Below, in pieces: positions 13,621 to 64,000 of a DNA stretch of 64,000 nucleotides; position 1 is the stretch's first letter, and each line of letters opens with the position of its first letter. Origin of the DNA: Gemmatimonadota bacterium (lineage in GTDB: Bacteria; Gemmatimonadota; Gemmatimonadetes; Longimicrobiales; Gaopeijiaceae); NCBI GenBank assembly GCA_022823145.1, contig JAJDXS010000028.1, positions 1 through 64,000 on the forward strand, read 5' to 3'. A model generated the notes under the pieces. It was not told the DNA's origin. It was given only the letters and a program-made list of their open reading frames with translations, and made no database searches. A program made the translations under genes and the position numbers.

Positions 13621-13626
13621 GGTGCG

Positions 13627-15147: not shown

Positions 15148-15161
15148 GCTCCTCGGTGCGG

Positions 15162-45885: not shown

Positions 45886-46028
45886 GGTGCAGCCTCCCGT
45901 GCCTGGTGTAGTGTCCCGTATCTGACATCCATTAGGCAACGGAGCCGCCGGGCGCGCCAGTCGGTCACGCCGGGGCGCTGGCCGCCCGAGAGAACGAACG
46001 CCCGACGACGCACGAAGAGAAGTCTGCC

Positions 46029-47144
46029 ATGACCCAGCCAGGAGCCCTCAGATTCAGGCCTGCATCCCTCGCCATCCTTGCCCTGGGTGCCGCTTGCGAC
46101 GCCCCGGCCCGGAGCACCGCCATGCCCCGGGATTCGATCATCGCCCGCCTGGCCGACCTGCGAGCGATCCACACGCCGGAAGGGGTCGAGGTCCTGGAGC
46201 CGATCGAGGTCAACGGCTCGACCCAGTGGCTGTCGATCCGCGGGCTGAACCGCGCCAACCCGATCCTCCTCGTGCTCCACGGCGGACCCGGCAGCCCGGT
46301 CATGGGAATGGCCTGGGCGTACCAGAAGCCCTGGGAAGATTTCTTCACGGTGGTCAATTGGGACCGCCGTGGCGTCGGCAAGAGCTTCGCCGCCGCGGAC
46401 TCCGCCCGCCTCGCCCCCACGCTGACCCTCCAGCAGCACGTGGACGACGCCCTGGTGGTCGTCGAACACCTCTTGAACAGGTTCGGACAGGAGAAGCTGG
46501 TGGTGCTCGGATACTCCTACGGAAGCTCGATCGGCCCCCGGCTCGTCGAACAGCATCCGGACCGGTTTCACGCCTACGTCGGGCTCGGCCAGTCGGGCGG
46601 CCCGGGCAGCGAGGCGCAGCTCTATTCCACGCTCATGGAGCGCGTCCGCGAGGCCAACGACACGACCGCGATCCGCGAGCTGGAGGCCCTGCAGCCCTAC
46701 CCGCCGCCGCGAGGTCCCGGCGCCGTCGCCAAGCTCCTGGCCGCCCGCAAGTGGGCCCGGGAGTACGACGGCGGCTGGTACGGCAAGCCCACCTTCGACC
46801 TGTACTTCGCACTCCCCGAATGGGGACCCGAGTACACCGAGGACGACGTGGCGCACCTGCAGCCGGCGATGGCATGGGCGGAGCGGCACCTGATCGACGG
46901 GGCGCCCGAACCCCGGCCAAGCGGGATGGTCGAACGCTTCGAGGTTCCCGTCATCATGCTCCACGGCCGCTTCGACCTGCACACGCCGTACGAGAGCGCC
47001 CTCGCCTACTTCAACCGAATCGAGGCACCCATCAAGCGGTTCGTGACCTTCGAACGCAGCTCACACATGATCATGTTCGAAGAGCCGGGCCGAATGCTGA
47101 TGACCCTGGTGGACGAAGTGTTGCCGCTGGCGGAGGGTCGCTAG
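46029..47144 (+). CDS. alpha/beta hydrolase lipoprotein, proline-iminopeptidase-like
   Basis: 371 aa. Lipobox ILALGAACDAP. LLVLHGGPGSPVMGMAW (the oxyanion HGGPG), VVNWDRRGVGKS, VVLGYSYGSSIG (nucleophile elbow GYSYGS), MLHGRFDLHTPY (Asp) and FERSSHMIMFEEPG (His) give the full triad. Family members cleave N-terminal proline or hydrolyse esters. Its end abuts the convergent plug-like gene by four bases. Outer-surface peptide degradation is likely, given the other S9/S15 enzymes. Confidence 0.88.
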   Translation: MTQPGALRFRPASLAILALGAACDAPARSTAMPRDSIIARLADLRAIHTPEGVEVLEPIEVNGSTQWLSIRGLNRANPILLVLHGGPGSPVMGMAWAYQKPWEDFFTVVNWDRRGVGKSFAAADSARLAPTLTLQQHVDDALVVVEHLLNRFGQEKLVVLGYSYGSSIGPRLVEQHPDRFHAYVGLGQSGGPGSEAQLYSTLMERVREANDTTAIRELEALQPYPPPRGPGAVAKLLAARKWAREYDGGWYGKPTFDLYFALPEWGPEYTEDDVAHLQPAMAWAERHLIDGAPEPRPSGMVERFEVPVIMLHGRFDLHTPYESALAYFNRIEAPIKRFVTFERSSHMIMFEEPGRMLMTLVDEVLPLAEGR

Positions 47145-47617
47145 GAACCCTCTTTGGTCTTCGTGAAGATCTGGATCACGCCGTTCCGGGCCTCGCTGCC
47201 GTAAAGCTCCTTCGCGGCGTCGCCCTTGAGCACTTCGACACGGTCGATCTGGTCGGGTTCGAGCAACTGCATGGCTTCGTCCCGGTCACCTTCGACGCGG
47301 ACGCCATCGATATAGATGATCGGTTCGCCGCCCGATTCCAGGGACTCCGACGAACGGATTCTGACCGTAATTCCCTCGCTGGTGGCCGTGCCCCTGACCC
47401 TGATCCGTTGGGCTTCGACGCGCTCCGAGGCCTCGGAAAGCCGCTCCGACAGCCGCTCCGTCAGTTCCGCAACCGCCTGTTGCCTGGCATCGACCTGCTC
47501 GGGTGCTTCGGCCGGCCCGCGTGTGGCCACGACCGCGAACATGGTTGCCAGCACCCCCACGGTGCCCGCCCCGGCGATGAGTGCGATGACCCCCAGGTCG
47601 TTCCTTTTCTTTCTCAT
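47141..47617 (-). CDS. inner-membrane-anchored TonB-plug-like protein
   Basis: 158 aa from ATG 47617 (GAGGAG upstream). An N-terminal KKRND and one helix (LGVIALIAGAGTVGVLATMFAVV) act as a membrane anchor, not a lipoprotein signal. A coiled-coil-like region (QQAVAELTERLSERLSEASERVEAQ) leads to a plug-like end: EPIIYIDGVRV, IDRVEVLKGDAAKELYG, EARNGVIQIFTKTKEG. These match the plug of the SusC at 15162-18242 almost phrase by phrase. A plug on the cytoplasmic membrane is unusual, and similar modules are fused to M56/BlaR1-like proteins in this phylum. Function unknown. Confidence 0.7.
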   Translation of the reverse strand: MRKKRNDLGVIALIAGAGTVGVLATMFAVVATRGPAEAPEQVDARQQAVAELTERLSERLSEASERVEAQRIRVRGTATSEGITVRIRSSESLESGGEPIIYIDGVRVEGDRDEAMQLLEPDQIDRVEVLKGDAAKELYGSEARNGVIQIFTKTKEGS

Positions 47618-47706
47618 CCGGGTGGCTCCTCTCACTGTGGTTCAAGTCAAGTGCGGACTTCCAGCACTCTACACCCAAGCGGCTCCCCACCGCAACTCGG
47701 ACGCCC

Positions 47707-48942
47707 TCAGAAGCGCTCCGGCGAGAACGCCTCCAGCCCCACACCCGCCGTCCCCTCCAGCATCAGTCCGGCCAGCGCCCATCCGCTGCTCGGCGCCAGC
47801 GTCACGCCCAGCATCTGGTGGCCGGTGTTCACGTACACGTTGTCGCGCGACGGCAACTTCCCCATTACGGGGAGGCTGTCCGGCACGATCGGGCGCATGC
47901 CCACCCAGGCGCGGCCTCCGTCCCTGGCCTCCGGGATGTCCACCTGGCGGCCCACCTGCCGGCGGAGCGACTCGATCCGCGCCACGTCCAGCCGCCGGTT
48001 GATCCCCGACAGCTCCATCGTCCCGGAGAAGCGCAGCGCGCCGCGGAAGGGGGTCAGCCCGATCTTGGCACCGCCCAGGTAGAGCGGTTGGCGCAACTGG
48101 TTGACCGGCTCCTCGATGGTGATCGAATAGCCCTTCCCCGCGGTCAGCGGGATCGGCCACCCCGCCATGCGCGTGAGTGAGCCGGTGAGGGCTCCCGCCG
48201 CCAGCACCACTGAATCGACCTCCAGGTCGCCCTGCGAGGTCACGAGCGCCCTGACGCGCCGCCCCCGGGTGTGGAACCCGGTCACCAGCGTGCCCTCGTG
48301 GATCTCGGCGCCGCCCTCGCGCAGCGCCGCGCCCAGCCCAGCCGTCAGTGATTCGGGCCGCACGTGGCGTTCGTCACCCACGAGAAGTCCGAACCGGAAC
48401 CCGGGCCGCAGCATGGGCTCGTGCTCGTACAGCTCGGCCTCGTTCAGCTCGGTGCAAGACGCCGCACCCGCCGCGGCGATCAGCTTGACCTCCTTCTGCG
48501 CCGCCGCGGCCTTGTCGGAGTCGCGGAACACCATCAGGACGCCCGTCCTCGAGTACTCGAAGTCCACGCCGCCGTCCGCCAGTTCGTCGTACCGCTCCAT
48601 CGTGAACCGGTTGAGCGCCGCGAGTACCGCTATTCCACGCTTCTGGTCGGCGTGGTTGCAGAACGAGCGGAACCGGAGCAGCCACGGGGCCAGCTTGAGC
48701 AACGCAGTTGGTTTGATGTAGAGCGGACTGTCCGCGCGCAGCATCCAGGACAGCGACTTGAGGGTGAGACCCGGCGCGGGGAGCGGGCTTGAGATCGACG
48801 GACACACCCAGCCTGCGTTTCCTTGCGAACAGCCGCCGCCGAGCGTCCACGACTCCACGACGACCGGATCGGCGCCGAGCTTCCTGAGGTAGTACGCCGT
48901 GGAGAGGCCGATCACCCCGCCGCCGACGATCCCGACCCGCAT
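47707..48942 (-). CDS. D-amino-acid dehydrogenase-like FAD oxidoreductase (DadA type)
   Basis: 411 aa. GIVGGGVIGLSTAYYLRKLGADPVVVE (FAD dinucleotide fold), GGGCSQGNAGWVCPS (typical of DadA), LKLAPWLLRF, and C-terminal WVGMRPIVPDSLPVMGKLP, VNTGHQMLGVTLAPSSGW. DadA oxidises D-amino acids to keto acids using the quinone pool. It shares one base with the D-acylase gene stop (TGATG), so N-deacylation followed by oxidation of D-amino acids is the natural reading. Full length. Confidence 0.85.
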   Translation of the reverse strand: MRVGIVGGGVIGLSTAYYLRKLGADPVVVESWTLGGGCSQGNAGWVCPSISSPLPAPGLTLKSLSWMLRADSPLYIKPTALLKLAPWLLRFRSFCNHADQKRGIAVLAALNRFTMERYDELADGGVDFEYSRTGVLMVFRDSDKAAAAQKEVKLIAAAGAASCTELNEAELYEHEPMLRPGFRFGLLVGDERHVRPESLTAGLGAALREGGAEIHEGTLVTGFHTRGRRVRALVTSQGDLEVDSVVLAAGALTGSLTRMAGWPIPLTAGKGYSITIEEPVNQLRQPLYLGGAKIGLTPFRGALRFSGTMELSGINRRLDVARIESLRRQVGRQVDIPEARDGGRAWVGMRPIVPDSLPVMGKLPSRDNVYVNTGHQMLGVTLAPSSGWALAGLMLEGTAGVGLEAFSPERF

Positions 48943-50735
48943 CAGCCGGCCGGCCTGTACCCGGGACCGCGCACGATCCGCCCCGGCTTCGCGCCCGTAT
49001 GCTCTCCACCCCGCAACACCGCCACCCCGTTCACGAACACCTCCTCGACACCGACCGAGAGCTGGTGCGGATCCTCGAAGGTGGCCCGGTCGGCCACGGT
49101 CTCCGGGTCGAAGACCACCACGTCCGCATACATCCCCACCCTGAGAAGGCCCCGGTCCTGGATCGACAGCCGCGTGGCAACCGCCGACGTCATCTTGCGG
49201 ATCGCGTCTTCCAGGGTGACCACACCCTCGTCGCGAACGTACTTGCCCAGGATGCGCGGATACGTACCGTACGACCGGGGGTGGGCCATCCCGGTCGCGC
49301 TGTCGGGGTCGAAGCCGGAGGCGTCGGTCCCGATCTTGATCCAGGACTGCTGCAGCTGCAGCGCGACGTTGGCCTCGTCCATCATGAAGACGATCATGCC
49401 CGCCTGGCCGCCGGTCATGAGGATCACCTCGATCGCCGCGTCGACCCAGTCCACCCCCATCTGCTCCGCGACCTCGGCCAGCCGCATGCCCACGAAGCCG
49501 CCCGCGCCGCTCGGCTCGCCGTCCGGCCCCACCTCGGCCGCCGACGTGATCATGACGCCCTCCGGCGTGGCCAGCATGCCGAGGTTCTCCCAGTCCGCCG
49601 TGTCCGCCAGGACCTCGTCGTGGATGCGCCGACGGATTTCGGGGTCGCGCAGGTTGTCGAGGAGCGCTCCGTCCTCCGACGCCCACGGCGGAAGCAGCGC
49701 AGGCAACCCGGTCCCGCCGGCCGTGTAGGGGTACATGTTGGCCTGCACGTCGAACCCCGCCGCCCGCGCCGAATCGATCTTGGCGATCGCCAGCGCGGCC
49801 TTGTGGTAGTTCCGCACGCCCGCCGCCTTCAGGTGATAGATCTCGACCGGCACGCCGCCCCGCTCCCCGATCTCGATGGCCTCGTCGATCGCTTCCAGGA
49901 ACCGGTCGGCCTCGGAGCGCATGTGGGTGATGTACACGCCGCCGTAGGGTGCCGACGCCGCGACCACCTCGCCCAGCTCTTCCGCGCTCGCGAAGTTGCC
50001 GGGCGGATAGATGAGGGCGGTGGCCACCCCGAAGGCGCCGCCCTCCATGGCCCAGCGGGTCGCCTTGCGCATCGAGTCGAGCTGGGCCTCGCTGGCCGGC
50101 CCGCCCGCCTCGCCCATTGCGTAGACGCGAATCGTCGTCGCACCCACGAACGAGCCGAAGTTGGGCGAAGCACCGTTGGCCAGCATCGCATTCAGCCAGG
50201 CATCGAAGCCGCGCGGTCCGGAAAAGTCGGGCCGTTCGCCCGCGAACTCGGGGTCGATCAGGCCCTCGCCGCGGGCCGTGTTGGCGTTGGCCGGCGCGTT
50301 CGTCCACCCTTCGCCCATGATCTCGGTCGTGATGCCCTGCGTGATCTTCCCCAGCAGGCGCCCGTCGCCCTCCAGCAGGGGGCCCCGCGCGTGCGACTGG
50401 ATGTCGATGAAGCCGGGGGACACCACTTTGCCCGTCGCGTCGATCCGGGTCCCGGCATCGACGTCCGCCAGACCGCCGGCCTGCGTCACCGCCGCGATCC
50501 GGTCGCCGCGAATGCCCACATCGCTGTAGAACCAGGCCGCGCCCGTGCCGTCGACCACGCGGCCGTTCGAGATGACCACGTCCATCGCGCCGTCGGCGCC
50601 GCTCGAGGGGGCGCCACCGTAGAGGCCGGTCCCCGCGCTTGTGCCGCCGCCCTCCCCGCAGGCGCACAGGAAGGCGGTCAAGCCGAATGCGACGCCGCCG
50701 ACCAGCGTCCGGGGGTTCGCTCTCGTCTTCATCAC
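48942..50735 (-). CDS. N-acyl-D-amino-acid deacylase homologue, lipoprotein
   Basis: 597 aa. Signal peptide with lipobox (LCACGEGGG). The amidohydrolase_3/D-aminoacylase layout is VISNGRVVDGTGAAWFYSDVGIRGDRIAAV, PGFIDIQSHARGPLL, GITTEIMGEGWTNAPA, YITHMRSEADRFLEAI, EIYHLKAAGVRNYHK, MTGGQAGMIVFMMDE and GTDASGFDPDSATGMAHPRSYGTYPRIL. The first metal His of the normal HTH/HSH motif is replaced by Gln (QSH), a variant seen in one subfamily. The other ligands are kept. It is cotranscribed with the dehydrogenase. Confidence 0.85.
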   Translation of the reverse strand: MMKTRANPRTLVGGVAFGLTAFLCACGEGGGTSAGTGLYGGAPSSGADGAMDVVISNGRVVDGTGAAWFYSDVGIRGDRIAAVTQAGGLADVDAGTRIDATGKVVSPGFIDIQSHARGPLLEGDGRLLGKITQGITTEIMGEGWTNAPANANTARGEGLIDPEFAGERPDFSGPRGFDAWLNAMLANGASPNFGSFVGATTIRVYAMGEAGGPASEAQLDSMRKATRWAMEGGAFGVATALIYPPGNFASAEELGEVVAASAPYGGVYITHMRSEADRFLEAIDEAIEIGERGGVPVEIYHLKAAGVRNYHKAALAIAKIDSARAAGFDVQANMYPYTAGGTGLPALLPPWASEDGALLDNLRDPEIRRRIHDEVLADTADWENLGMLATPEGVMITSAAEVGPDGEPSGAGGFVGMRLAEVAEQMGVDWVDAAIEVILMTGGQAGMIVFMMDEANVALQLQQSWIKIGTDASGFDPDSATGMAHPRSYGTYPRILGKYVRDEGVVTLEDAIRKMTSAVATRLSIQDRGLLRVGMYADVVVFDPETVADRATFEDPHQLSVGVEEVFVNGVAVLRGGEHTGAKPGRIVRGPGYRPAG

Positions 50736-50739
50736 TCCC

Positions 50740-52041
50740 TCAATTCTCCCTCTCGTGGACCAGCTGCCCGCCCACGTACACGCGGGTCGCCCACGTTCGA
50801 ATGCTCAGCGGATCGCCGTCGAAGACGACCACGTCCGCGTCCTTGCCCACCTCCAGGCTGCCCAGGCGATCGGCCACCCCTAGCACCTCGGCCGGGCTCA
50901 GCGTGACCGCCCGCAGGACGTCCGGCTGGCTCATCCCGTGGCCGTGCGCGATCGACGCGTCGATGAGCAGCCATTGGCCGGCCACTCCCGGCCCGAAACT
51001 TCCGAAGCCCCGCGAGAAGCTGGCCAGCGAGACGTGCACCCCGGCCTCGTGGAGCCAGACCGCGTTGCGCTCGTCGACGTCTCCGTAGTCACCTGGATCC
51101 GGGATCTCCTCGCCCGAGATGTAGGGGTGCGAAATCGGCCCGAGGACGACCGGAATCCCGCGGTCCGCGAGCTCGCCCGCCATCTGATGCGCCCCCGCAC
51201 CCCCGTCGATCACCAGCTCGAAGCCGAATTCCTCGGCGAGTTCGATCGCCACGCGGATGTCGCGCGTCGCGTTGGCCTGCACGCGGGCGGGCACCTCGCC
51301 GTTCAACAGCCGCGCGAGCGCCTCCATGCCGAGGTTGCGGGGGACCGCGGGCGCCTCGTCGGACCCGCCTTCCTCTCCGGATTCCGCACCCGAACCGGCC
51401 ATCCACTCCCGCGCCCTCACCAGCAGGTCCCGGAGCTGCGCCACCACCGCCATCCGCGTCGAGGGCGACCGTGACTGCTCGCGGTAGGTTGCCGCCGGCT
51501 TGCCCCCCAGCGTGATGTCGATCGCCGCCGGCTCGCGCACGATCAGGTCGTCGAAGCGCGCCCCGGCCGTCTTCACCACCGCGCCCTGCCCGCCGATCAC
51601 GGTCCCGTCGCCCGGTCCGATGTACGTCGCCGTCACACCGCCCGACAGCAGCTCGCGCACCCGGATCTCGCCCGCCGGACCCGCACCCATCGGCCCGAAC
51701 GGGCTGAACGCCTCGATGATCCGCAGCTCGGGCGTCAGCGGATTCGGCACCTCGTTCATGTCCTCGCCCGCGATCCCGTAGTAGCTCATCGCGTCGATGA
51801 TCCCGGGCATGACCACGCTCCCGCTCACATCCACGACCTCCGCGCCCGCGGGGATCTCCACGTCGGCGCCCACCGCGGCGATGCGGCCGTCCACCATCAG
51901 CACCGTCCCCCCTGCCACGGGTTCCGATGAGACGGGGTAAACCAGCCCCCCGATGAGCGCGACGGTCTGTGCCTGGACTCCGGCCCCGGCGCCGTGGATC
52001 GCGGCCAGGGCGACTGCTGCGACCCGCGCTGCCCCTCTCAT
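50740..52041 (-). CDS. secreted amidohydrolase-like protein with degenerate metal site
   Basis: 433 aa from ATG 52041, overlapping the previous stop by four bases. Signal peptide to QA (AGAGVQAQ). The amidohydrolase fold is recognisable (VMPGIIDAMSYYGIAG, GGVTATYIGPGDGTVIGGQGAVVKT, TLSPAEVLGVADRLGSLEVGKDADVVVFDGDPL), but the HxH after GIID is replaced by MSYYG. Most other metal ligands are not evident. It is a paralogue of the gene at 52038-53261, which keeps HSH. It may be a non-catalytic or substrate-binding partner of it. Confidence 0.8.
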   Translation of the reverse strand: MRGAARVAAVALAAIHGAGAGVQAQTVALIGGLVYPVSSEPVAGGTVLMVDGRIAAVGADVEIPAGAEVVDVSGSVVMPGIIDAMSYYGIAGEDMNEVPNPLTPELRIIEAFSPFGPMGAGPAGEIRVRELLSGGVTATYIGPGDGTVIGGQGAVVKTAGARFDDLIVREPAAIDITLGGKPAATYREQSRSPSTRMAVVAQLRDLLVRAREWMAGSGAESGEEGGSDEAPAVPRNLGMEALARLLNGEVPARVQANATRDIRVAIELAEEFGFELVIDGGAGAHQMAGELADRGIPVVLGPISHPYISGEEIPDPGDYGDVDERNAVWLHEAGVHVSLASFSRGFGSFGPGVAGQWLLIDASIAHGHGMSQPDVLRAVTLSPAEVLGVADRLGSLEVGKDADVVVFDGDPLSIRTWATRVYVGGQLVHEREN

Positions 52042-53261
52042 GGCACCTCTCCTTCCCTGTCGTACGCGACCATCCCGTTGACGTACACCCGCGTCACCAG
52101 CGTGCTGACCTCGTACCACGTCCCGTTCAGCACCACGATGTCGGCGTCCTTGCCCACCTCCAGACTCCCCACACGGCCCTCGACACCCGCGATCGCGGCC
52201 GGGTTGATCGTCACCGCTTCGAGCGCGTCCTGCTCGGTCATCCCGTAGCGGATCCCGAGCCCGGCGTTGCCCCGCTGCCACTTGGAGCCCACCACCGGAT
52301 CGTCGGTGTGGAAGGCGAAGCGCACGCCCTTCTCGTTCATCAGGGTGCCGGTGCCCATGACCTCGTCCGACAGCGCGATGCGCGTGAAGAGCGGCATCCC
52401 CACCACGTCGATCCCGGCCTCGGCGATGTCGTCTGCGACCTTGTAGGCCTCTGTGGAGTGGTGGATCGTGAGCCCGAAGTCGAACTCCTGCGACAGTCGG
52501 ATGATCGCGAGGATGTCGTGCGCCATGTGGACGTGGGAGCGGATCCGGTCTTCGCCGGTCAGGACGCGCACCACGGCTTCCATGGCCAGGTCGCGCGGCG
52601 GGGCCGGGCCCTCCCGGCCTCCCTCCTCCCATGCGTCCCGCGTGGCCTGGTACTCCTGCGCCTCGATGAACTTGGCGCGAAGCAGCCCGGTCACCGCCAT
52701 GCTGGTCGTCGGCGACTGGTCGGGACGCTTCCGCCCCATCGCGATCTTGAGCCCGCCGCGCTCCTTCACGATGCGCTCCTCGAGCGACGACCCCCACGTC
52801 TTGACCACGATCGCCTGCCCGCTCGACACCTCGCCGCTCCCTGGTCCGGTGATGACCGTGGTCACACCGCCGTTCACGGCGTCGTACCAGAACGCATCGT
52901 CGGGCGAGAGCACGTCGCGGATGCGGTGCTGCGGCCCGAACCGGGTCGGGAACTCGTTGAGGTCGCGGCTGTCGGCGCCGATGTGGGAGTGGTTGTCCAG
53001 CATCCCGGGCATGACGACCATGCCGCTCACGTCCACGACTTCGGCGCCGCCGGGCGGGGAGACGTCCGCGCCGATGGCGGTGATCACGCCGTCCTGGAAG
53101 ACGATCGTGCCGTTCTGGATGGCGGGCCCGGCGGCCGTGTGAATGCGCGCCCCGACCAGCGCGACGGGGGTGGCCTGGGGCGCGGCGGGGGCGGGAGCGG
53201 CGCCAGATGCGGCCACCACGGCCCCGAATGTCAATCCCACATTACATAGTGTAAAGCGCAC
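52038..53261 (-). CDS. secreted amidohydrolase
   Basis: 407 aa from GTG 53261. Leader MRFTLCNVGLTFGAVVAASGAAPAPA is a plausible signal peptide. The fold shows MVVMPGMLDNHSHIGADSRDLNEF (HSH), GGVTTVITGPGSGEVSSGQAIVVKTWG, LTIHHSTEAYKVADDIA, FAFHTDDPVVGSKW and EVGKDADIVVLNGTW. The first codons lie inside a copy of the TTACA element, and only a GA-rich run serves as ribosome site, so the start is uncertain. It heads a four-gene operon leading to the D-aminoacylase and DadA-like genes. Confidence 0.8.
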   Translation of the reverse strand: MRFTLCNVGLTFGAVVAASGAAPAPAAPQATPVALVGARIHTAAGPAIQNGTIVFQDGVITAIGADVSPPGGAEVVDVSGMVVMPGMLDNHSHIGADSRDLNEFPTRFGPQHRIRDVLSPDDAFWYDAVNGGVTTVITGPGSGEVSSGQAIVVKTWGSSLEERIVKERGGLKIAMGRKRPDQSPTTSMAVTGLLRAKFIEAQEYQATRDAWEEGGREGPAPPRDLAMEAVVRVLTGEDRIRSHVHMAHDILAIIRLSQEFDFGLTIHHSTEAYKVADDIAEAGIDVVGMPLFTRIALSDEVMGTGTLMNEKGVRFAFHTDDPVVGSKWQRGNAGLGIRYGMTEQDALEAVTINPAAIAGVEGRVGSLEVGKDADIVVLNGTWYEVSTLVTRVYVNGMVAYDREGEVP

Positions 53262-53269
53262 GTTACATT
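53238..53269 (-). promoter_or_regulatory. three-half-site TTACA element, copy 2
   Basis: TTACA (53242-53246), TAG, TGTAA (53250-53254), eight bases and TTACATT (53263-53269), written on the plus strand. It overlaps the GTG start (53261) of the amidohydrolase operon and follows the M19 dipeptidase gene. It is an ideal place for a repressor to block that operon. The dyad resembles BlaI/MecI operators. Confidence 0.6.
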
Positions 53270-53313
53270 CTCTCTCTCTCTTTGCTGAACCGGTGCCCGG
53301 ACGGGACGCCTGC

Positions 53314-54534
53314 TCACACTTCCCAGATCTCACCCAGCACCCGCTGGAAGTTCCCCCCCAGAATCCCGCGTATGTGATCGTCCGTGTATCCCCGCCGGAT
53401 CAGCGCCTCGGTCAGGTCGAACATGCGCTTGGGGTGATCGACGCCCTCGATGTCGATCTTGTCGCGGAACGCGTACGAGTCCTTGTAGGCGCTCTTCAGC
53501 GCCTCGTACTCGTCGGCCGGCATGTCGTCGTAGCCGTGCAGATCGACATCGCTGCCCACGCCCAGGTGCTCGACGCCGATCAGGTCGCGCACGTGGTCGA
53601 AGTGGTCGATGTAATCCTCGATCGTCGTGGGCTCCCTGTCCTTCACGAACATGCGCACGCCCGTCATCCCCATCACGCCACCGGTCGCGGCCATGGCTCG
53701 AATGGCCTCGTCGGTCTTGGTGCGGGGATGGCCGCCCGACAGCACCCGGCTGTTCGAGTGCGTGAAGAGGACGGGCCGCGACGAGACCTCGCAGGCATCC
53801 AGCGTCGTGCGATCGCCCGAGTGCGAGACATCGACGGCCATCCCGATCTCGTTCATGCGCTCGACGATCGCGACGCCGAAGTCCGATATGCCCCCGTCGA
53901 CCCGCTCCGTGGCCCCGTTGCCGATCATGTTGCGCGAGTTGTAGGTGAGCTGTGCCACCCGCTGTCCGAGCCAGTAGAACTGGTTGACGTCGTCGAGGGT
54001 ATGGAAGTGGGACGAGGTCTGCAGGCCGATGAGGATCCCCTGGCGCCCCGACCCGTGCACGTTCGCCAGATCCTCCGCCGAATCGATCCGCACGAAGAGA
54101 TCGGGCCGCGACGCGATAATCGCATTGTAGCCCGCCACGAAGAGCAGCGTGTTCTCGTACTGGTCCTCGAAGTCGCGCCCGCCCACCCCCACCGCGATGT
54201 GGAAGACGTCGATCTGGGAGTCCCGGAAATCCTGCTCCTCCTCGGCCGTCATGCCGCTCAGATCGGGACCCCACCGCTGCTGAATGGACCGGGAGATCAC
54301 CAGGGGCGACAGCATGTCGATCACGAGCGACCCGGTGACCAGGTCGACGCAGCGCGTGGAGTATTCCTGCGGCGTGCCGGCCAGGCCGTCACGGCCGCGA
54401 GCCATCAGCTTGACGCGGCCGAGGTTGAGGAATGGAGCGGCGATGGCGAGTCCTGCGGCTCCACCGGCGGTCTTCACCACGGTCCGACGGGTCAGGATTG
54501 CGGTCGGTCTCTGCCGGGCGCTGTCTTTACTCAT
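53314..54534 (-). CDS. Tat-exported M19 dipeptidase homologue with altered metal ligands
   Basis: 406 aa from ATG 54534 (MSKDSARQ); ATG 54546 is four codons further upstream. LTRRTVVKTAGGAAGLAIAAPF is a Tat signal. The M19 TIM barrel has GMAVDVSHSGDRTTLDACEVSSRPVLFTHSNSR, HLGVGSDVDLHG and ILGGNFQRVL. The N-terminal HxD (usually DGHNDL) reads VIDMLSPL, the Glu of the IGxEGxH motif reads GLQTSSHF, and LTHN reads LTYNSRN. This is a variant subfamily; metal use may differ. It lies upstream of the D-amino-acid operon, suggesting dipeptide or peptidoglycan use. Confidence 0.82.
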   Translation of the reverse strand: MSKDSARQRPTAILTRRTVVKTAGGAAGLAIAAPFLNLGRVKLMARGRDGLAGTPQEYSTRCVDLVTGSLVIDMLSPLVISRSIQQRWGPDLSGMTAEEEQDFRDSQIDVFHIAVGVGGRDFEDQYENTLLFVAGYNAIIASRPDLFVRIDSAEDLANVHGSGRQGILIGLQTSSHFHTLDDVNQFYWLGQRVAQLTYNSRNMIGNGATERVDGGISDFGVAIVERMNEIGMAVDVSHSGDRTTLDACEVSSRPVLFTHSNSRVLSGGHPRTKTDEAIRAMAATGGVMGMTGVRMFVKDREPTTIEDYIDHFDHVRDLIGVEHLGVGSDVDLHGYDDMPADEYEALKSAYKDSYAFRDKIDIEGVDHPKRMFDLTEALIRRGYTDDHIRGILGGNFQRVLGEIWEV

Positions 54535-54976
54535 GTGGCTTCTCATTTACCCGAAGATTCGTTTTCGGAACGGTTTCGACCTGCATGTACCGAGCAGCGC
54601 GAATCAGCGCGCGGTCGAGCGTAGCAAGCTGAACACCACGCCTCATGGCCAGCTCAAGATAGGCTGCGTCATAGGTGCTGAGGCTGCATTCGCGGGCCAG
54701 CAGCAGGGTTTCTCGCAGCGCACGCTCATCGGTCTCGGTATCGGTGACTATCGCGAGCCTTCGCAGGAGATGGAGATAGGTTGCGACCTTCGCCTTCGCA
54801 ATGCGCTTCACCCTTTCAGCGCGCACCAGAACATTGCCGATTTCCAGGTGCCAGATCCCTGGGACCAGCGCACCCTCGCTCCCCAGCCGGTCCAGCAGTG
54901 CCTCGGTCTCCGGCGTACCCTGGTCCGGGAACAGCCACGTAGCCGTCACTGAGCAGTCGAGCACGAACGCGCTCAT
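54527..54976 (-). CDS. vapC: PIN-domain toxin (VapC)
   Basis: 149 aa from ATG 54976, overlapping the Phd antitoxin stop by four bases (ATGA). MSAFVLDCSVTATWLFPDQ (first Asp), WHLEIGNVLVRAER (Glu), LSTYDAAYLELAMRRGVQLATLDRALIRAA (the C-terminal Asp pair). Intact catalytic residues. The 3' end overlaps the dipeptidase start. Probable RNase toxin. Confidence 0.9.
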   Translation of the reverse strand: MSAFVLDCSVTATWLFPDQGTPETEALLDRLGSEGALVPGIWHLEIGNVLVRAERVKRIAKAKVATYLHLLRRLAIVTDTETDERALRETLLLARECSLSTYDAAYLELAMRRGVQLATLDRALIRAARYMQVETVPKTNLRVNEKPHE

Positions 54977-55212
54977 GGACGCCCCTCGTCCCGCAGCTCC
55001 TTCCAATCCAGATCGCCGAGAGTGACGCCCTCGCGGATGGACCGCAGCTCCCGAATCGCGTCCGCAACATCCCGCCTGTCCGGCTCCTCGGCCGGAACGA
55101 GGCGCGCAACGGGCACACCTCGTCTGGTTATCAGGACCTCCTCACCTTTGGCCACCCTCTTGAGCAACGACGAAAGGTGTGTCTTGGCATCGAACGCGCC
55201 AACCGTGATCAT
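54973..55212 (-). CDS. Phd/YefM-type antitoxin
   Basis: 79 aa. ITVGAFDAKTHLSSLLKRVAKGEEVLITRRGVPVARLVP is the Phd/YefM signature. It would dimerise on DNA and mask the VapC partner. A perfect 19-nt palindrome lies 28 bp upstream. Confidence 0.9.
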   Translation of the reverse strand: MITVGAFDAKTHLSSLLKRVAKGEEVLITRRGVPVARLVPAEEPDRRDVADAIRELRSIREGVTLGDLDWKELRDEGRP

Positions 55213-55239
55213 GATGATCCTCCCTCGAAGACACAGACA

Positions 55240-55258
55240 ACTAGTTTAGTAAACTAGT
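55240..55258. promoter_or_regulatory. palindromic operator of the Phd/VapC pair
   Basis: ACTAGTTTAGTAAACTAGT is a perfect 9+1+9 palindrome. On the minus strand TATACT (55261-55256), a good -10, overlaps its edge, so antitoxin binding would block the promoter. No clear -35 was found. Confidence 0.55.
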
Positions 55259-55331
55259 ATAACCGTAATCTGCGTCGGCACACCACCAGAGCAGCTTCAT
55301 CAGGCCGCCGCGCCGAAACCGGGACAAGCCG

Positions 55332-57392
55332 TTAGCTCGCCATCCCCCGGTACCGGTCGAACCACCCCACGATGTACTTGATCTTCTGCATGAAGTGGCT
55401 CGGCCGCACCCGGATCCCGTGCGGCTCGCCCGGCACCTTCACCAGCACCGCCTCCACGCCCTCGAGCTTGAGCGCCTGGAAGTACTGGTCCGACTCCGAC
55501 ATCGGCGTGCGGTAGTCCTCGACGCCGGTCATGACCATGGTCGGCGTCGTCACGTTGCCGACCAGCGAGATCGGCGAGCGCGACATGTAGTGCTCCGGAT
55601 CCTCCCAGGGCATCGACGGGAACCAGTACTTCGACACCGTGATCGGAATGTCCGCGCTCACGGCAAAGCTGTACCAGTTGATCACCGGGTAGAGCACGGC
55701 CGCCGCTTTGTAGCGGTCGGTCATGCCGATCGACCACGACGACAGCACCCCACCGCCCGAGCCGCCCGTGATGTAGAGCTGCTCCGGGTCCACGTACCCG
55801 AGTTCGATCACCGCGTCCACGCCCGAGTCCAGGTCGTAGTAGTCGTTGCCGGGGTATGAGTGGTGGATGAGATTGCCGAACTCCTCGCCGTACGAAGTGC
55901 TCCCCCGCGGGTTGGTGTAGAGCACGACGTAGCCTGCGGAAGCCATCGACTGCTTCTCTATGTCGAACCTGTCGCCGTAGTTCGCGAACGGCCCGCCGTG
56001 GATCTCCAGGATCAGCGGATAGCGCCGCGACGGATCGAATCCCGGCGGCTTGATGATCCACCCATGGATGTCGAGGCCATCGTGCGACGAGGGCCACCAC
56101 AGCTCTTCGACGGCCCCGAGGGTCTTGTGCCCCAGCACGTCCTCGTTCACCGCCGTGACGATGCGTACATCTCCGCCATCGTCCCCGACCGCCAATTCGC
56201 TCATCACCGTCGGTGTCGATGTCGTGTAGGCGAACACGCCGTCCGGCCCCACCGAGAAACTGCCGCCCCCGTACGCGGACCCGCTTCCGCCCATGTTCTC
56301 GGCCACCACGTGGACCTCGTCGCTGCCCGGCTCGACGTACGCGATCTTCGTGTTGCCCATGTCCGCGTACGAGAAGTAGAGCCGTCTCGAGTCCGGCGAC
56401 CAGGCGAGGCCGCCCACGGAGCGGTCGAGCTGGGCAGCTACCTGGCGCGCGTCCGATCCGTCGCGATTCGCCATGTACAGCCCCGTCACCTGGTACCCCT
56501 GGTAGCGGTCGTCGAACCCGGTATACGCGATCCGGAGGCCATCGGGCGACACCGCCACGCCTCCGTCGGGACCCTTGCGGTCCGTCAACGCTCTGATCTC
56601 CCCGTCCAGCGAGACCTCGTAGATCTCGGTGTTGCGGTTCTCAAGCTCCCAGTCCGCATGCCGGTTCGCCACGATCAGCACCGACTCGCCGTCCGCCGAC
56701 CAGACGGGCCGGCCGCTCCCCGAGCGACCCACGTAGCCCCCGTGATGGAAGTCCCCGCTGGTGATCTGCCGCGGCGTTCCCCCTTCCGAAGGGACGACGA
56801 ACAGGTGGGTGAAGCCGTGCTCGAGGTCACCCGCCCCGTCGAAGCGGTGGACCAGCTCATGGATGACGCGCGCGGGCTCGGCCCACTCGGCCCCTTCCGG
56901 AGGCTCCGGCATCGAGATCAGCTGCATGCCGGCGTCCGGCACAAAGGATGAGAACGCGATCTGCGAGCCGTCCGGCGACCAGGCGGGGACCCGCGGCTCC
57001 TCGGCCAGGTTCGTGATCCGGTTCGTGGCCCCGGTGTCCATCCAGCGAATGTGAAGCTGCGCAGAACCGGTCATGTCCGACACGTAGAGGAGGCGGCTGC
57101 CGTCGGGTGCCCAACGCGGCCAGCTGTCCGACTGCTTGCCCGAAGTGAGGGAACGCTGTCCCGAGCCGTCGCCGTTCATGATCCACAGGTTCGAGTACCG
57201 CGTGTCGGTGTGCGGGTCCGCCCATTGCCGGACGAAAACGATCTGCGAACCGTCCGGCGAAACCTGCGGGTCGCTGACGAACTCGAGGTCGAAGACGTCT
57301 TCCGCGGTGAGCACATCCATGTTCTGCTGCGCCAGGGCGCTCGCGGGAACCGCGACGGAGGCGACGAAAACAACGATCAGCAACCGGTTCAT
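55332..57392 (-). CDS. S9 prolyl-oligopeptidase family secreted peptidase
   Basis: 686 aa from ATG 57392; the ORF extension to 57758 lacks a ribosome site. Signal peptide MNRLLIVVFVASVAVPASALAQ. The N-terminal propeller has repeated SPDG motifs (SPDGSQIVFVRQ, APDGSRLLYVSD, SPDGSQIAFSSF). The catalytic domain shows LYITGGSGGGVLSSWSIG (nucleophile), MTGVEDYRTPMSE (Asp) and VPGEPHGIRVRPSHFMQK (His). Cuts short peptides outside the cytoplasm. Upstream is a separate gene for a GNAT protein. Confidence 0.9.
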   Translation of the reverse strand: MNRLLIVVFVASVAVPASALAQQNMDVLTAEDVFDLEFVSDPQVSPDGSQIVFVRQWADPHTDTRYSNLWIMNGDGSGQRSLTSGKQSDSWPRWAPDGSRLLYVSDMTGSAQLHIRWMDTGATNRITNLAEEPRVPAWSPDGSQIAFSSFVPDAGMQLISMPEPPEGAEWAEPARVIHELVHRFDGAGDLEHGFTHLFVVPSEGGTPRQITSGDFHHGGYVGRSGSGRPVWSADGESVLIVANRHADWELENRNTEIYEVSLDGEIRALTDRKGPDGGVAVSPDGLRIAYTGFDDRYQGYQVTGLYMANRDGSDARQVAAQLDRSVGGLAWSPDSRRLYFSYADMGNTKIAYVEPGSDEVHVVAENMGGSGSAYGGGSFSVGPDGVFAYTTSTPTVMSELAVGDDGGDVRIVTAVNEDVLGHKTLGAVEELWWPSSHDGLDIHGWIIKPPGFDPSRRYPLILEIHGGPFANYGDRFDIEKQSMASAGYVVLYTNPRGSTSYGEEFGNLIHHSYPGNDYYDLDSGVDAVIELGYVDPEQLYITGGSGGGVLSSWSIGMTDRYKAAAVLYPVINWYSFAVSADIPITVSKYWFPSMPWEDPEHYMSRSPISLVGNVTTPTMVMTGVEDYRTPMSESDQYFQALKLEGVEAVLVKVPGEPHGIRVRPSHFMQKIKYIVGWFDRYRGMAS

Positions 57393-57418
57393 GGGGGGTG
57401 TTCTCCTGCGTTCGGGTG

Positions 57419-58282
57419 CTAGCGAGAGACCACGTACCTGCCGTGCGTCTCCCCCGGGATGAATTCGCTTATTGCGTACGGCCCGCTCAGCAGGTGATTG
57501 AACGCCCGGCGGGTCGAATGCCTCCAGCCGAGCGCCTCGTCGAAGGAACGGGCTTCCACTTCTTCGATGTCGCGCGGGATCAGAACTTCGATCACGTCCG
57601 CGTCCGATGGGGGCAGCCCGTCGCTGCCAGGGGCCCACACGACCCGCCGGCACGCCGATCTTCCGCCGGACGCTCCCGGGCGTGTGCTCCGGGGCACCTC
57701 CCCCGACGCACTCGCCAGGTCGACTTCCCCGGCCGCGTCCGCGCCCCCGAGGTCCCATTTGGCGATGAACCGGTCGGTGCCCAGCTGGTGGAGCTCGCTG
57801 TCCGATGTCCCGTACATGTCCTGGACGAACTCGTCTACCGTGGCCCCGAGCAGGTTGAGGTTGAGGTGGGCGTTTCGGGCCACCAGGGGGTCGAAGGTCC
57901 AGTACATGGTCTTCACCCCCACACCGCGGAGCTCCTCCTTTTGCGCGAGCTTGAGCCGCCGGCCGATCCCCTGGTTCCGCGCTTCGGGGCGCACGGCCAG
58001 CATGTGCGACCAGTGGGCGAGTTCCCCCCGGCGCAGCCCCGTCACCCCATACACGAAGCCGTACAGGGCTCCGTCAGAACCGAATGCCCCCGTCACGACC
58101 CCCTTCATCTTGGCCGTGATCTGCAACATGCTGAGCGGCACCACGTCCGAGAAGCCGTGGCCCCAGGTTTCGCGCTGGAGATCGACGCACGCGACGAAAT
58201 CGTCGCGAGTCTCAGCCGGGCGAATCTGGACCTGAAACGCGCCGGCGGAGTCTGTGCCGGAGGCGGGGGCTTGCGAGGTCAT
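57419..58282 (-). CDS. GNAT superfamily acetyltransferase-like protein
   Basis: 287 aa from ATG 58282, with AAGGGAG about eight bases upstream. IRPAETRDDFVACVDLQRETWG begins the domain, and MLAVRPEARNQGIGRRLKLAQKEELRG gives the acetyl-CoA Q/RxxGxG/A loop. Then follow TFDPLVARNAHLNLNLLG and a longer C-terminal region. It resembles the COG3375-type predicted acetyltransferases, substrate unknown. Divergent from the GntR gene, 244 bp apart. Confidence 0.75.
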   Translation of the reverse strand: MTSQAPASGTDSAGAFQVQIRPAETRDDFVACVDLQRETWGHGFSDVVPLSMLQITAKMKGVVTGAFGSDGALYGFVYGVTGLRRGELAHWSHMLAVRPEARNQGIGRRLKLAQKEELRGVGVKTMYWTFDPLVARNAHLNLNLLGATVDEFVQDMYGTSDSELHQLGTDRFIAKWDLGGADAAGEVDLASASGEVPRSTRPGASGGRSACRRVVWAPGSDGLPPSDADVIEVLIPRDIEEVEARSFDEALGWRHSTRRAFNHLLSGPYAISEFIPGETHGRYVVSR

Positions 58283-58339
58283 CACGGCGCTCCCTTGAGA
58301 ACGTCCATTCCCTGGCGTCACTTGGGACGGCAACCTAGC

Positions 58340-58368
58340 TTGCAGTTTCGCATACGGCAAGGTATACA
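58340..58368 (+). promoter_or_regulatory. gntR promoter with overlapping GTATAC operator
   Basis: TTGCAG, 17 nt, then TATACA; the -10 sits in GGTATACAAT, which resembles the FCD-GntR operator type (TTGTATACAA). Self-control by the GntR protein is plausible. The leader to the ATG at 58527 is about 150 nt. A strong AGGAGG (58480-58485) in a GGCGG/CCGCC hairpin precedes a 5-codon ORF, not gntR itself. Confidence 0.5.
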
Positions 58369-58526
58369 ATGATTCGAGCCCACGCGGAGTACATTTCTGC
58401 GTTATGTTATCAGGCTGGACAAGATATTTCGGGGTCCTGCTGGAACAACCAGCGGAACCGGGAACAAGGGAATCTAGTAAGGAGGCGGATTCCGCCAAGA
58501 TGCGCGGTCCGCAATGACACAGAGCC

Positions 58527-59222
58527 ATGAGTCTAGTCAACACCACTGTCGATCTCGGGACGCAGGCCTACGAGCGTCTGCGCGAACTTATCGTCCACGG
58601 CCGCCTCGCCCCCGGCTCGCGTCTCATCGAGACCGAGATCGCCGACCGGCTCGGGCTCAGCCGCACTCCCATCCGGAGCGCGCTCCAGCGTCTTATGCAG
58701 GAAGGTTACATCGCCGATACCGGAAACGGCCGTCAGAGCCGCCCGTACGTTTCGCCGCTCACGAAGGACGACGCGCTGGAACTGATGTTCATCGTGGGCG
58801 AGATCGAGGGGCTGGCCGCCTGCCGAGCCGCTCTTCTCGACACCCGCCCCGCCCTGGTGACCGAACTCAACGCGATCAACTCCGAGATGCTCGCGGAGGC
58901 GAGCCTCCGCAGACCCTCCCGCGAGCGGCTCTTCCAGCTCGACAACAGATTCCACAGCGCGTACGTGCAGGCGGGGGCCGGCCCCCGGCTCCTGGTGCTC
59001 AACGACTCCATCAAGCCGCAGGCCGAGCGCTATATACGCCTCTACGTCGATGCGCTGATCGATCAGATCGCCGTGTCCGTCGAGGAGCACGAGAAGATCG
59101 TGAGCGCGATCGCGTCCGGCGACCCGGATCAGGCCCAGGCCACCGTACGGACCAACTGGCGCAACGCCGCGGAGCGACTCGGCGGTGTCATCGCTCGCGC
59201 CGGGGAACTGGGCAGCTGGTAA
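58527..59222 (+). CDS. GntR family regulator, FCD (FadR/VanR) subfamily
   Basis: 231 aa. Winged HTH QAYERLRELIVHGRLAPGSRLIETEIADRLGLSRTPIRSALQRLMQEGYI, then an all-helical FCD effector domain with LFQLDNRFHSAYVQAGAGPRLLVL (D, H metal-ligand positions), VDALIDQIAVSVEEHEKIVSAIASGDPDQAQATVRTNW. These regulators respond to organic acids or acyl derivatives and bind TNGTNNNACNA-type sites. It likely controls the serine hydrolase, propeller lipoprotein and oxidoreductase genes that follow. Shine-Dalgarno weak. Confidence 0.9.
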   Translation: MSLVNTTVDLGTQAYERLRELIVHGRLAPGSRLIETEIADRLGLSRTPIRSALQRLMQEGYIADTGNGRQSRPYVSPLTKDDALELMFIVGEIEGLAACRAALLDTRPALVTELNAINSEMLAEASLRRPSRERLFQLDNRFHSAYVQAGAGPRLLVLNDSIKPQAERYIRLYVDALIDQIAVSVEEHEKIVSAIASGDPDQAQATVRTNWRNAAERLGGVIARAGELGSW

Positions 59223-59259
59223 ACGCCCGCCCACCCGGACCCTACAGGAGACCCCACCG

Positions 59260-60768
59260 ATGAACCGCACCCGATTCCTTGCGCTTGTCTTCTTCGTCGT
59301 TTTCGCTCCGGCCGCGGCCGCGCAGCAGGGACTTGAGGGCCTGGGCGCCGAAATCGAGCAGATGATCGGCGACTGGGGGATCCCGGGAGCCGCCGTCGTT
59401 GTCATTCAGGACGACGAAATCACCTTCGCGCAGGGCTTTGGCGTCAGGGAGATCGGTGGCGGCGATCCGGTCGACGAGCACACGATCTTCGCGGTGGGGT
59501 CCACCTCCAAGGCCTTCACCGCCGCCTCGATCGCCATGCTCGTGGACGAAGGGAAAGTGTCATGGGACGATCCCATCGGCGATCACGTGCCCATCTTCCA
59601 GCTCAGCGACCCCTACATCACGCGCGACCTGCGCGTGCGCGACCTCATGGCCCACAACTCCGGCCTGATGCGCGGTGACCGCCTCTGGTACGCGAGCGGC
59701 CGCAGCCGCGAAGAGGTCCTCGAGCAGGTGAGACACCAGCCTGTGACTTTCCCGCTGCGCTCGACCTTCCAGTACAACAACACGACGTGGATCGCGGCCG
59801 GCGAAGTCATCGAAAACGCCTCCGGCATGAGCTGGGACGACTTCGTGGCCTCGCGCATCTTCCGGCCGCTGGGCATGACCCGGAGCACGACCTCGGTCGA
59901 GGCGCTCAAGCGGCTCGACAATGTCGCCACGCCTCACAATCCGTCGCTGGACGGCGAGGTGAAGGCCATTCCATACCGCAACATCGACAACGCGGGGCCG
60001 GCGGGCTCGATCAACTCCAGTGCGCTGCAGATGGCCCAGTGGATCCGGCTGCAACTCGGTCGCGGCGAATTCGAGGGTGAGCGGCTGATCTCCGAGGAAG
60101 CCATCGGTGAGACGCACACCAGCCAGATGCTCATCCGCAAGGAGGGCACCTGGGCGCTCACCTGGCCCGAATCCGATTTCCTGACCTACGGGCTCGGCTG
60201 GTTTCTGAGCAGCTACCGCGATGTCACGATGATCTCCCACGGCGGCAACATCGACGGCATGACCGCCTACGTCGGATTCGTCCCAAGGCGCGGCTACGGA
60301 ATGGTCATCCTGTCGAACCTGAGCAGCGCAAACGGCTTCAGCTCCGCTCTGGCGCACCGGATCATCGACCGCCTGGAGGGCGGCGAGGGCCTGCCCTGGA
60401 ACGAGAACATGCTCAAGGTCTTCAACGAGTTCACGGACCGGCAGCGCGCCGCCGCCAGGGAGGTCGAAGAGAGCCGCGCGGAGGGCACGTCGACCACGCT
60501 GCCCGTCGCCGAGTACGCCGGCACCTACGCCAACGACATGTACGGCGAGATCGCGGTGACCGAGGACGGCGGGGTGCTGAGCGCCAGCTTCGGCGCCGGC
60601 TACCATGGCTCCCTGGAGCACTGGCACTACGACACCTTCCGGGTCGGCTGGGGCGGCGGCGCCGAGCCCCGTGAGTTCCTGCGCTTCGAGATCGGAACCG
60701 ACGGCAAGGTCGCGGTCCTGCACGCGGAGATCGAGGGAAGCATCGCATTCAGGAGGCAGGAAGGGTAA
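59260..60768 (+). CDS. secreted class C beta-lactamase-like serine hydrolase
   Basis: 502 aa from ATG 59260 (AGGAGACC upstream). Signal peptide MNRTRFLALVFFVVFAPAAAAQ. Motifs are VGSTSKAFTAASIAML (SxxK), QYNNTTWIAAGEV (YxN) and MISHGGNIDGMTA (HGG), with a C-terminal beta domain (YAGTYANDMYGEIAV...). Distinct from the two lipoprotein paralogues at 41-44 kb, as it lacks a lipobox. Substrate unknown. Confidence 0.88.
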   Translation: MNRTRFLALVFFVVFAPAAAAQQGLEGLGAEIEQMIGDWGIPGAAVVVIQDDEITFAQGFGVREIGGGDPVDEHTIFAVGSTSKAFTAASIAMLVDEGKVSWDDPIGDHVPIFQLSDPYITRDLRVRDLMAHNSGLMRGDRLWYASGRSREEVLEQVRHQPVTFPLRSTFQYNNTTWIAAGEVIENASGMSWDDFVASRIFRPLGMTRSTTSVEALKRLDNVATPHNPSLDGEVKAIPYRNIDNAGPAGSINSSALQMAQWIRLQLGRGEFEGERLISEEAIGETHTSQMLIRKEGTWALTWPESDFLTYGLGWFLSSYRDVTMISHGGNIDGMTAYVGFVPRRGYGMVILSNLSSANGFSSALAHRIIDRLEGGEGLPWNENMLKVFNEFTDRQRAAAREVEESRAEGTSTTLPVAEYAGTYANDMYGEIAVTEDGGVLSASFGAGYHGSLEHWHYDTFRVGWGGGAEPREFLRFEIGTDGKVAVLHAEIEGSIAFRRQEG

Positions 60769-60838
60769 GCGGAGGCTCCTCGTCGGCGTACGGTCTGCCA
60801 TGGAATCGTTTTGACAGTCCGTCAGGGAGGATGAACCG

Positions 60839-63231: not shown

Positions 63232-63246
63232 GGAGACCGGACCGGG

Positions 63247-63903
63247 ATGACGCTTAGATTCGCCGAAGAGATCATGCTGCTCCTGCTGGATGACGAAGAG
63301 GGACGCTTCCTGCGGGTACCCGACTGGTCGATGCGGTATGCGCTCGGCGGCGCGGTGCTGATGGACCTCGCTCTCGAGGACCGGATCGACACCGACCTCG
63401 AGAAGCTGGTCCTGGTCGATTCCACCCCGCTGGGCGAAGATCTGCTCGATCCCGTGCTCGCCGAAATCGCCGGCGAGGAGGGTACCCACAACGCGCGCTT
63501 CTGGGTGGAACGCGCCGCGGGACATTCCGACGCGATCCGCGAAGCCGCCGTGACCCGCCTCGTCGAACGCGGGATCCTGGAGCGCAGGGAGGACCGGTTC
63601 CTGTGGGTCTTCCGGTCGCGGCGCTACCCCGTCGTCGACGGGACCGCCGAGCAGGAGGTCAAGCTGCGGATCATGGAGCTGCTCTTCAGCGAGATGATCC
63701 CGACTCCGCGCGACGTCGTCATCATCTGTCTGGCGGACGCGTGCGGCATCTTCGCCGAGCTGCTCTCCAGGCGCGAACTGCAGCACGTCATGCCGCGCAT
63801 TCAGTTCCTGCGCCGGATGGACCTGATCGGCCGCGCGGTGACGGACGCCGTATGGGACATCGAGGTCTCGCTGGCGCAGGCGATCCGACCCCACTTCGGA
63901 TAG
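63247..63903 (+). CDS. GPP34 (GOLPH3/Vps74-like) domain protein
   Basis: 218 aa, domain throughout. LRFAEEIMLLLLDDEEGRFLRVPDWSMRYALGGAVLMDLALEDRI is the GPP34 start, followed by VTRLVERGILERREDRFLWVFRSRRYPV and IMELLFSEMIPTPRDVVIICLADACGIFAELLS. In eukaryotes the domain binds PI4P at the Golgi. Bacterial members are known, function unclear, possibly envelope-related. It is 15 bp downstream of the oxidoreductase. Confidence 0.8.
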   Translation: MTLRFAEEIMLLLLDDEEGRFLRVPDWSMRYALGGAVLMDLALEDRIDTDLEKLVLVDSTPLGEDLLDPVLAEIAGEEGTHNARFWVERAAGHSDAIREAAVTRLVERGILERREDRFLWVFRSRRYPVVDGTAEQEVKLRIMELLFSEMIPTPRDVVIICLADACGIFAELLSRRELQHVMPRIQFLRRMDLIGRAVTDAVWDIEVSLAQAIRPHFG

Positions 63904-63941
63904 GCCCCGGTGGCGCGGTGGGGGCACACGTCTGACAAGTA

Positions 63942-63973
63942 GGCTTTACATTATATAAGGTAAACCTTACATT
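63942..63973. promoter_or_regulatory. three-half-site TTACA element, copy 3
   Basis: TTACA (63946-63950), TTA, TATAA (63954-63958, degenerate middle half-site), eight bases and TTACATT (63967-63973). Spacing is identical to copies 1 and 2. It lies past the end of the GPP34 gene and might serve a gene right of the window. Confidence 0.5.
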
Positions 63974-64000
63974 GTCGGAGTTGTCGGGCCACGCACCAGC

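Follow-up and report, generated by a model that had tools for sequence, protein, structure and literature searches.

The DNA analysed here is a 64,000-nucleotide stretch (the window) from a Gemmatimonadota bacterium, positions 1 to 64,000 of contig JAJDXS010000028.1, and it carries three copies of a 43-base-pair (bp) palindromic element, listed without strand, each in a gap between genes. The first, site 1, at 12700 to 12742 (ATAGTAAACGCCACATTACAGAATGTAATGTCGATATTACATT), lies between converging genes, with its centre 22 bp past the stop codon of a plus-strand gene for an Amidohydro_2 protein (11653 to 12699), whose 3' end abuts it, and 51 bp from the end of a minus-strand gene at 12772 to 13143. 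Site 2, at 53227 to 53269 (AATGTCAATCCCACATTACATAGTGTAAAGCGCACGTTACATT), lies between two minus-strand genes, where it faces the 5' end of an amidohydrolase gene (52038 to 53219) and abuts the 3' end of an M19 dipeptidase gene (53314 to 54534). Site 3, at 63931 to 63973 (TCTGACAAGTAGGCTTTACATTATATAAGGTAAACCTTACATT), comes after two plus-strand genes, one for a flavin adenine dinucleotide-dependent oxidoreductase of the DAO/DadA type (62053 to 63231) and one for a GPP34-domain protein (63247 to 63903). It stands upstream of a plus-strand regulator gene that begins 17 bp past the window (64017 to 65123 on the contig, 369 amino acids). The elements are probably operators of this autoregulator, a protein with an Xre-type helix-turn-helix (HTH) and a PBP_like domain, which appear to have multiplied and may now act at gene ends as roadblocks or architectural sites.

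A preliminary description of the window had reported the element as three half-sites with rigid 21-bp spacing at three loci. The copies (12715 to 12742 and 53242 to 53269 with no mismatch, 63946 to 63973 with one, all on the plus strand) were recovered, the spacing proved exact, and 100 shuffles of the window yielded no match (mean 0.00). The description was nevertheless incomplete, because a further left half-site, AATGTAA, is present with 2, 1 and 4 mismatches of 7 in copies 1, 2 and 3, and the profile of sites from the source genome (AATGTAA[TG]N..TTACA-TAA-TGTAA..TTACATT) covers 43 bp. The reported third half-site is thus the visible part of a symmetric four-half-site palindrome, AATGTAA-N8-TTACA-N3-TGTAA-N8-TTACATT, which can also be read as two 22-bp palindromes (AATGTAATGTNNACATTACATT-like) with centres 21 bp apart. 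In the same profile, no information was found beyond 21 bp on either side of the site centre.

The motif belongs to a genome-wide family. At up to three mismatches the source genome has 100 matches on the forward strand and 104 on the reverse, compared to one of each for the pattern read backwards, which is far above the chance frequency that the preliminary description had named as a refutation of its proposal. At least 69 distinct places are represented among 100 of these 204 strand matches. The DNA analysed from the source genome consisted of 40 stretches around matches plus the window and yielded 46 distinct sites, with three at contig ends left out of counts by gene orientation. A de novo palindrome search of DNA chosen around sites in this genome and in two relatives, G021 and G001, returned this family and nothing else comparable. 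Three identical 28-base matches on separate contigs of the source genome (C1:5916, C50:19634 and C61:3258) are probably one repeated element or contig ends, and G021 has three identical sites 249 bp apart at C1:207277-207817, in a tandem repeat that carries the site.

The gene behind site 3 encodes a protein with an HTH_3 domain (PF01381, 45.7 bits, cut-off 23) and a PBP_like domain (PF12727, 149 bits, cut-off 27), and is followed by modA, modB and a gene for a modC-like ATPase. Scores against curated models exceeded the cut-off for modA (TIGR01256, 147.9 versus 62.5) and modB (TIGR02141, 209.5 versus 182.6) and fell below it for modC (197.3 versus 285.05). In the remaining DNA up to the contig end at 72445, two further large open reading frames were called, encoding an outer-membrane beta-barrel and a cadherin-repeat protein. 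The predicted structure of the regulator (predicted local distance difference test score 91.0) resembles phosphate- and molybdate-binding proteins and LysR effector domains, and relatives of its HTH among solved chains include CylR2. Operon context and fold suggest that the protein may bind molybdate or tungstate.

This gene alters the interpretation first offered for the element, that of a BlaI/MecI/CopY operator under a repressor that senses wall fragments or beta-lactam-like ligands through a BlaR1-like partner. A regulator gene does lie to the right of 63942, as had been anticipated, and the view of the element as an operator-like, putative protein-binding site holds, but the protein is of the HTH_3 and PBP_like type. 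No Penicillinase_R repressor was found beside site 3 (the rest of the genome was not searched for BlaI), no BlaR1/M56 partner occurs in the seven large open reading frames of 62000 to 72445, one of them scanned in part, and sensing of wall fragments or beta-lactams is unsupported.

The link between site and regulator was drawn from distant genomes. A scan of genome contigs for the exact site returned 14 stretches, five from Gemmatimonadota (three of which match DNA of the source genus at 72 to 86% identity), four from Microbacteriaceae/Aquiluna, three from Alphaproteobacteria and one each from Balneolaceae and Bacteroidales. In all four Aquiluna/Microbacteriaceae stretches the exact four-half-site element is followed by a membrane-protein gene and then by a gene for a 70-amino-acid YozG-like Xre HTH protein, and in the Balneolaceae record it precedes an open reading frame followed by an 84-amino-acid HTH protein. 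These small HTH genes led to the regulator. With the Aquiluna HTH protein as query, a match was found in 22 of 23 genomes of the genus, all except G009, and the match in the source genome is the N terminus of the 369-amino-acid regulator. The recognition segment GVSRQA(I/V) is common to the genus, and GVSRQ(T) occurs in Aquiluna. The three records from Alphaproteobacteria have the element in front of an AMP-ligase-like gene, with a homogentisate-dioxygenase-like gene nearby, both named by reading the sequence.

Within the genus, a site with 2 to 6 mismatches of 24 stands no more than 330 bp upstream of the regulator in all 22 regulator-bearing genomes, while 9 mismatches was the best score of the reversed control (19 genomes). 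Of the 22 other genomes in the genus, 21 have matches at up to two mismatches, numbering 10 to 228 on the forward strand. At this threshold, two of the 36 genomes from other genera of the family and order have one match each. A blind whole-genome scan at up to three mismatches covered 17 other-genus genomes that encode a relative of the regulator and found between 0 and 8 strand matches in each. Six of them (G140, G197, G257, G176, G141 and G245) have a match close upstream of the regulator; some other-genus upstream regions hold weaker versions with 5 to 9 mismatches. On this evidence the auto-operator looks ancestral, and multiplication is seen in this genus only. Taken together, these patterns make it very likely that the regulator is the protein that binds the sites.

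Genome G009 lacks both components. It keeps the order DadA-GPP34-modA-modB-modC, with the regulator missing between GPP34 and modA, where a gap of about 120 bp contains no site. The whole genome has no match at up to two mismatches and one at three. In a tree of up to three proteins, with GPP34 as the sole representative of the outgroup, G009 falls inside the genus as sister to G005, G008, G012, G020 and G022 (support 0.959). Because G009 is nested in the genus and synteny is kept, its loss of protein and sites looks secondary and coupled, which would make this genome a natural knockout.

Sites for transcription factors may also arise by chance, according to the relevant part of PMC6397444. 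Conservation was compared between half-sites and the bases between them. At 21 loci shared by the source genome and G002, changes affected 14 of 504 half-site positions, 54 of 399 interspersed positions and 214 of 2,481 flanking positions, a half-site rate about five times below that of the bases between. Orthology was called on flanks with the site masked, and 21 of the 46 source loci had a G002 counterpart, of which 17 came from G002 stretches picked for holding a similar site and so are biased towards conservation. Four loci fetched by flank or regulator gave the same picture in G002 (1 of 96 versus 13 of 76, P 1e-4) and in G015 (1 of 96 versus 15 of 76), as did the five convergent loci alone (2 of 120 versus 18 of 95); site 1 shows 0 of 24 half-site changes in both G002 and G015. 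The half-sites are under purifying selection, which speaks against a chance origin for the set tested.

The distribution of sites relative to genes is not that of promoter elements. By gene calls from a simple script, not curated annotation, 36 of 45 source-genome sites follow a stop codon at a distance of at most 100 bp and 16 of 45 precede a start by no more than 100 bp, classes that overlap, and in several cases the TAA of the site doubles as the gene's stop codon. Divergent gaps hold 3 sites versus 13.6 expected from random placement in the same gaps (P 0.0003). Sites in tandem gaps lie a median of 50 bp from the stop codon versus 160 bp expected (0 of 20,000 draws) and a median of 93 bp from the next start, similar to the auto-operator. 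G021 resembles the source genome, with 7 convergent, 17 tandem and 4 divergent sites. A promoter regulon would place sites at gene starts and enrich them in divergent gaps; the source genome shows neither, and G001 alone fits better. The upstream location implied by the preliminary description thus applies to copies 2 and 3, which face gene starts, but not to copy 1 between two converging gene ends, and in related genomes many copies lie elsewhere than upstream, for example in convergent gaps. Genes next to sites, 27 facing them with the 5' end and 48 ending at them, have mixed functions that include amidohydrolases, beta-lactamase-fold proteins, DNA polymerase A, peptide deformylase, GreA/GreB, sulfate permease and a NUDIX protein, and together they do not resemble a molybdenum regulon.

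Three convergent gaps were traced across the genus. A site at up to 8 mismatches is present in 25 of 64 genome-gap pairs, no pair falls in the range of 9 to 12, and all others have at least 13; with the reversed control, two pairs reached 8 or fewer. Outside the source genome, G002 and G015, 15 of 54 pairs have a site, nine of them at gap L043 and one at gap L031, so that recurrence is strong at L043 but weak at L031. The distance from site to stop codon varies between species. The gap of site 2 contains a recognizable site, with differing flanks, in G002, G015, G017, G004, G010, G019 and G018, while no site was seen there in G007; other minus-strand loci were left out of the locus listings used for relatives. 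In different species a site is often retained or regained at the 3' end of the Amidohydro_2 gene, although the downstream partner of site 1 (12772 to 13143 and beyond in the window) varies. In G018 (L284) and G013 (L287), the L043 gap has a different palindrome, GAGTATG-N-CATACTC, in place of the site. As a second multiplied palindrome this sequence was rejected, occurring at 0 to 2 places per genome.

We propose the following model. Two regulator dimers would bind the two 22-bp palindromes, 21 bp or two helical turns apart. Half-sites 2 and 4 of site 3 overlap a sigma-70-like sequence, TTTACA-N17-TACATT (9 of 12), so that bound protein would cover the promoter and repress the regulator-mod operon, autorepression being the simplest reading. 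The ligand may be an oxyanion such as molybdate. The operator would then have multiplied in this genus, with the extra copies mostly just 3' of genes, where bound protein could form roadblocks to RNA polymerase or architectural anchors in place of promoter switches. These two roles for the 3' copies, taken together, have somewhat less than an even chance of being right. Position in convergent gaps excludes promoter control there, and selection argues against pure debris. A more specific version, in which an autorepressor has become a protein-based bidirectional terminator or insulator whose sites vanish with the protein, is speculative and on balance improbable; if true, an oxyanion signal could alter read-through at dozens of loci at once.

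Several observations weigh against the model. Sixteen of the source-genome sites precede starts closely enough that a share of the set may be ordinary operators, the convergent enrichment there is weak (11 sites versus 6.8 expected, P 0.067), and divergent gaps are not depleted in G001 (1 convergent, 7 tandem, 4 divergent) or G011 (3, 10 and 4). No molybdenum enzyme appears among the 25 families listed of 38 and of 65 that neighbour sites. Eleven of the 17 other-genus genomes have no site before the regulator at up to three mismatches, with matches elsewhere in four and none in seven. Some backbone nodes of the tree are weakly supported. Finally, the site-rich genome G011 encodes a shortened regulator of 261 amino acids that lacks most of the second half of PBP_like (27.7 bits, positions 3 to 78 of the 193-position profile).

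One alternative is that mobile or selfish palindromes copied the operator and piled up at gene ends, where insertion is harmless. G011 speaks for it. Match numbers are highest in this 2.8-Mb genome, at 228 on each strand with up to two mismatches, and 13 of 17 sites read there share similar flanks, which align as a repeat of about 200 bp or longer whose ends are inverted (GCAGCCCGTGGACA...TGTCCACGGACTGC-like). A repeat in G011 seems to have picked up the operator, and copy number in that genome is therefore not to be read as regulon size. Similar repeat sequence without the site occurs in gaps of G016 (L333) and G007 (L087). Copy numbers that range from 0 to 228 forward matches, and orthologous gaps that either have a site or lack it with nothing in between, would also suit mobility. 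A repeat carrying the site throughout the genus was considered and rejected, as it was seen in G011 only: any similar flank is found for just 9 of 46 sites in the source genome, 8 of 28 in G021 and 0 of 12 in G001, several of these cases being paralogous genes. The lack of information outside the 43 bp, the selected half-sites and the total loss with the regulator in G009, unexpected for an independent element, also count against mobile palindromes, and we consider them an unlikely source of the family.

A conventional large regulon, in which promoter operators have made the regulator a global oxyanion-responsive repressor or activator, also appears doubtful. The distance of tandem sites to the next start, like that of the auto-operator, agrees with it, as do the 4 divergent sites and 1 convergent site of G001, a genome with few sites, and the few sites that have site-bearing counterparts in distant species (for example L026 and L055 with G001, L051 with G021). 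The avoidance of divergent pairs in the source genome, selection on convergent copies and the mixed neighbours, housekeeping genes included, argue against it. Sites that organize the chromosome or nucleoid without a transcriptional role are likewise improbable. On the closed chromosome of G021, the 37 sites at up to one mismatch show an even distribution (Kolmogorov-Smirnov P 0.88), and the HTH protein EspR offers a precedent in the relevant part of PMC3315491, where its sites are, however, mostly inside genes, unlike those of the genus. The even spread also means no bias towards a domain or the terminus, and a replication- or terminus-linked distribution was rejected on this ground.

An element acting as RNA, such as an intrinsic terminator hairpin, is highly improbable and was rejected as a candidate. 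It would explain the position behind stop codons, and the 43-mers form more stable folds than their mononucleotide shuffles do (mean z -2.6 and -2.05), but the N8 arms do not covary (P 0.24) and TTTT within 15 nucleotides follows the site in 2 of 99 approaches. Read in direct orientation, the two N8 spacers show a slight similarity (P 0.012). In the window, terminator-like hairpins are no more frequent than expected from shuffled sequence (2 versus 7.9 at 1 to 20000, 5 versus 7.2 at 44001 to 64000), so that intrinsic terminators look scarce in these two segments. BlaI/MecI/CopY operators can be set aside almost entirely, since their sole point is the TACA/TGTA dyads, which we take to resemble such operators, and the conserved site stands before an Xre-PBP_like regulator and a mod-type operon.

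The preferred reading, multiplied operators acting at gene ends, describes how the operator of a local autoregulator multiplied inside a single genus while other genera show the putative ancestral state. The system is small, consisting of one protein and one 43-bp site, and the placement of many copies just after gene ends, not at starts, is unusual and as yet unexplained. Since a role as promoter operators is excluded for the selected sites of convergent gaps, these sites raise the question of whether bacteria end or insulate transcription by means of sequence-specific proteins.

Parts of this system have counterparts elsewhere. REP (repetitive extragenic palindromic) and MITE (miniature inverted-repeat transposable element) repeats are palindromic, intergenic, close to gene ends and variable in number between species. 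The G011 copies lie in such a repeat, whereas most copies in the source genome and G021 lack shared flanks, the half-sites are selected, and loss is coupled to the regulator. ModE, the molybdate repressor, has a different helix-turn-helix and a molybdate-binding domain, whereas the regulator here joins an Xre domain to a periplasmic-binding-protein fold. The two are alike in presumed oxyanion sensing and in linkage to molybdate transporter genes, the latter described for ModE and modABC in part of PMC4349456. One-component regulators of the HTH_3 + PBP_like type share the same two Pfam domains (PF01381 and PF12727) and modABC linkage; here an operator is described as well, and in one genus it is present in dozens or hundreds of copies. 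Among the papers listed by literature searches for a described Xre-PBP_like molybdate operator, none was on point. The Aquiluna operons have the exact element just upstream and the same SRQ-A/T recognition segment, but a single site per record and no PBP_like domain. C.Kpn2I is an autoregulated Xre-type HTH protein that, when bound, blocks elongating RNA polymerase, as the pertinent part of PMC6237814 describes, and repressor roadblocking is reviewed in a section of PMC10310618; by analogy, and from position, roadblocking may also apply here, although in that account C.Kpn2I has one local site, no PBP_like domain and no genome-wide 3' set. EspR of Mycobacterium tuberculosis, as presented in the part of PMC3315491 that concerns its binding, is an autoregulated HTH protein that acts as a dimer of dimers at 165 loci not confined to promoters, with a short motif and sites that are 45% intergenic and 55% within genes. 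In contrast, the sites described here are long intergenic palindromes near the ends of genes.
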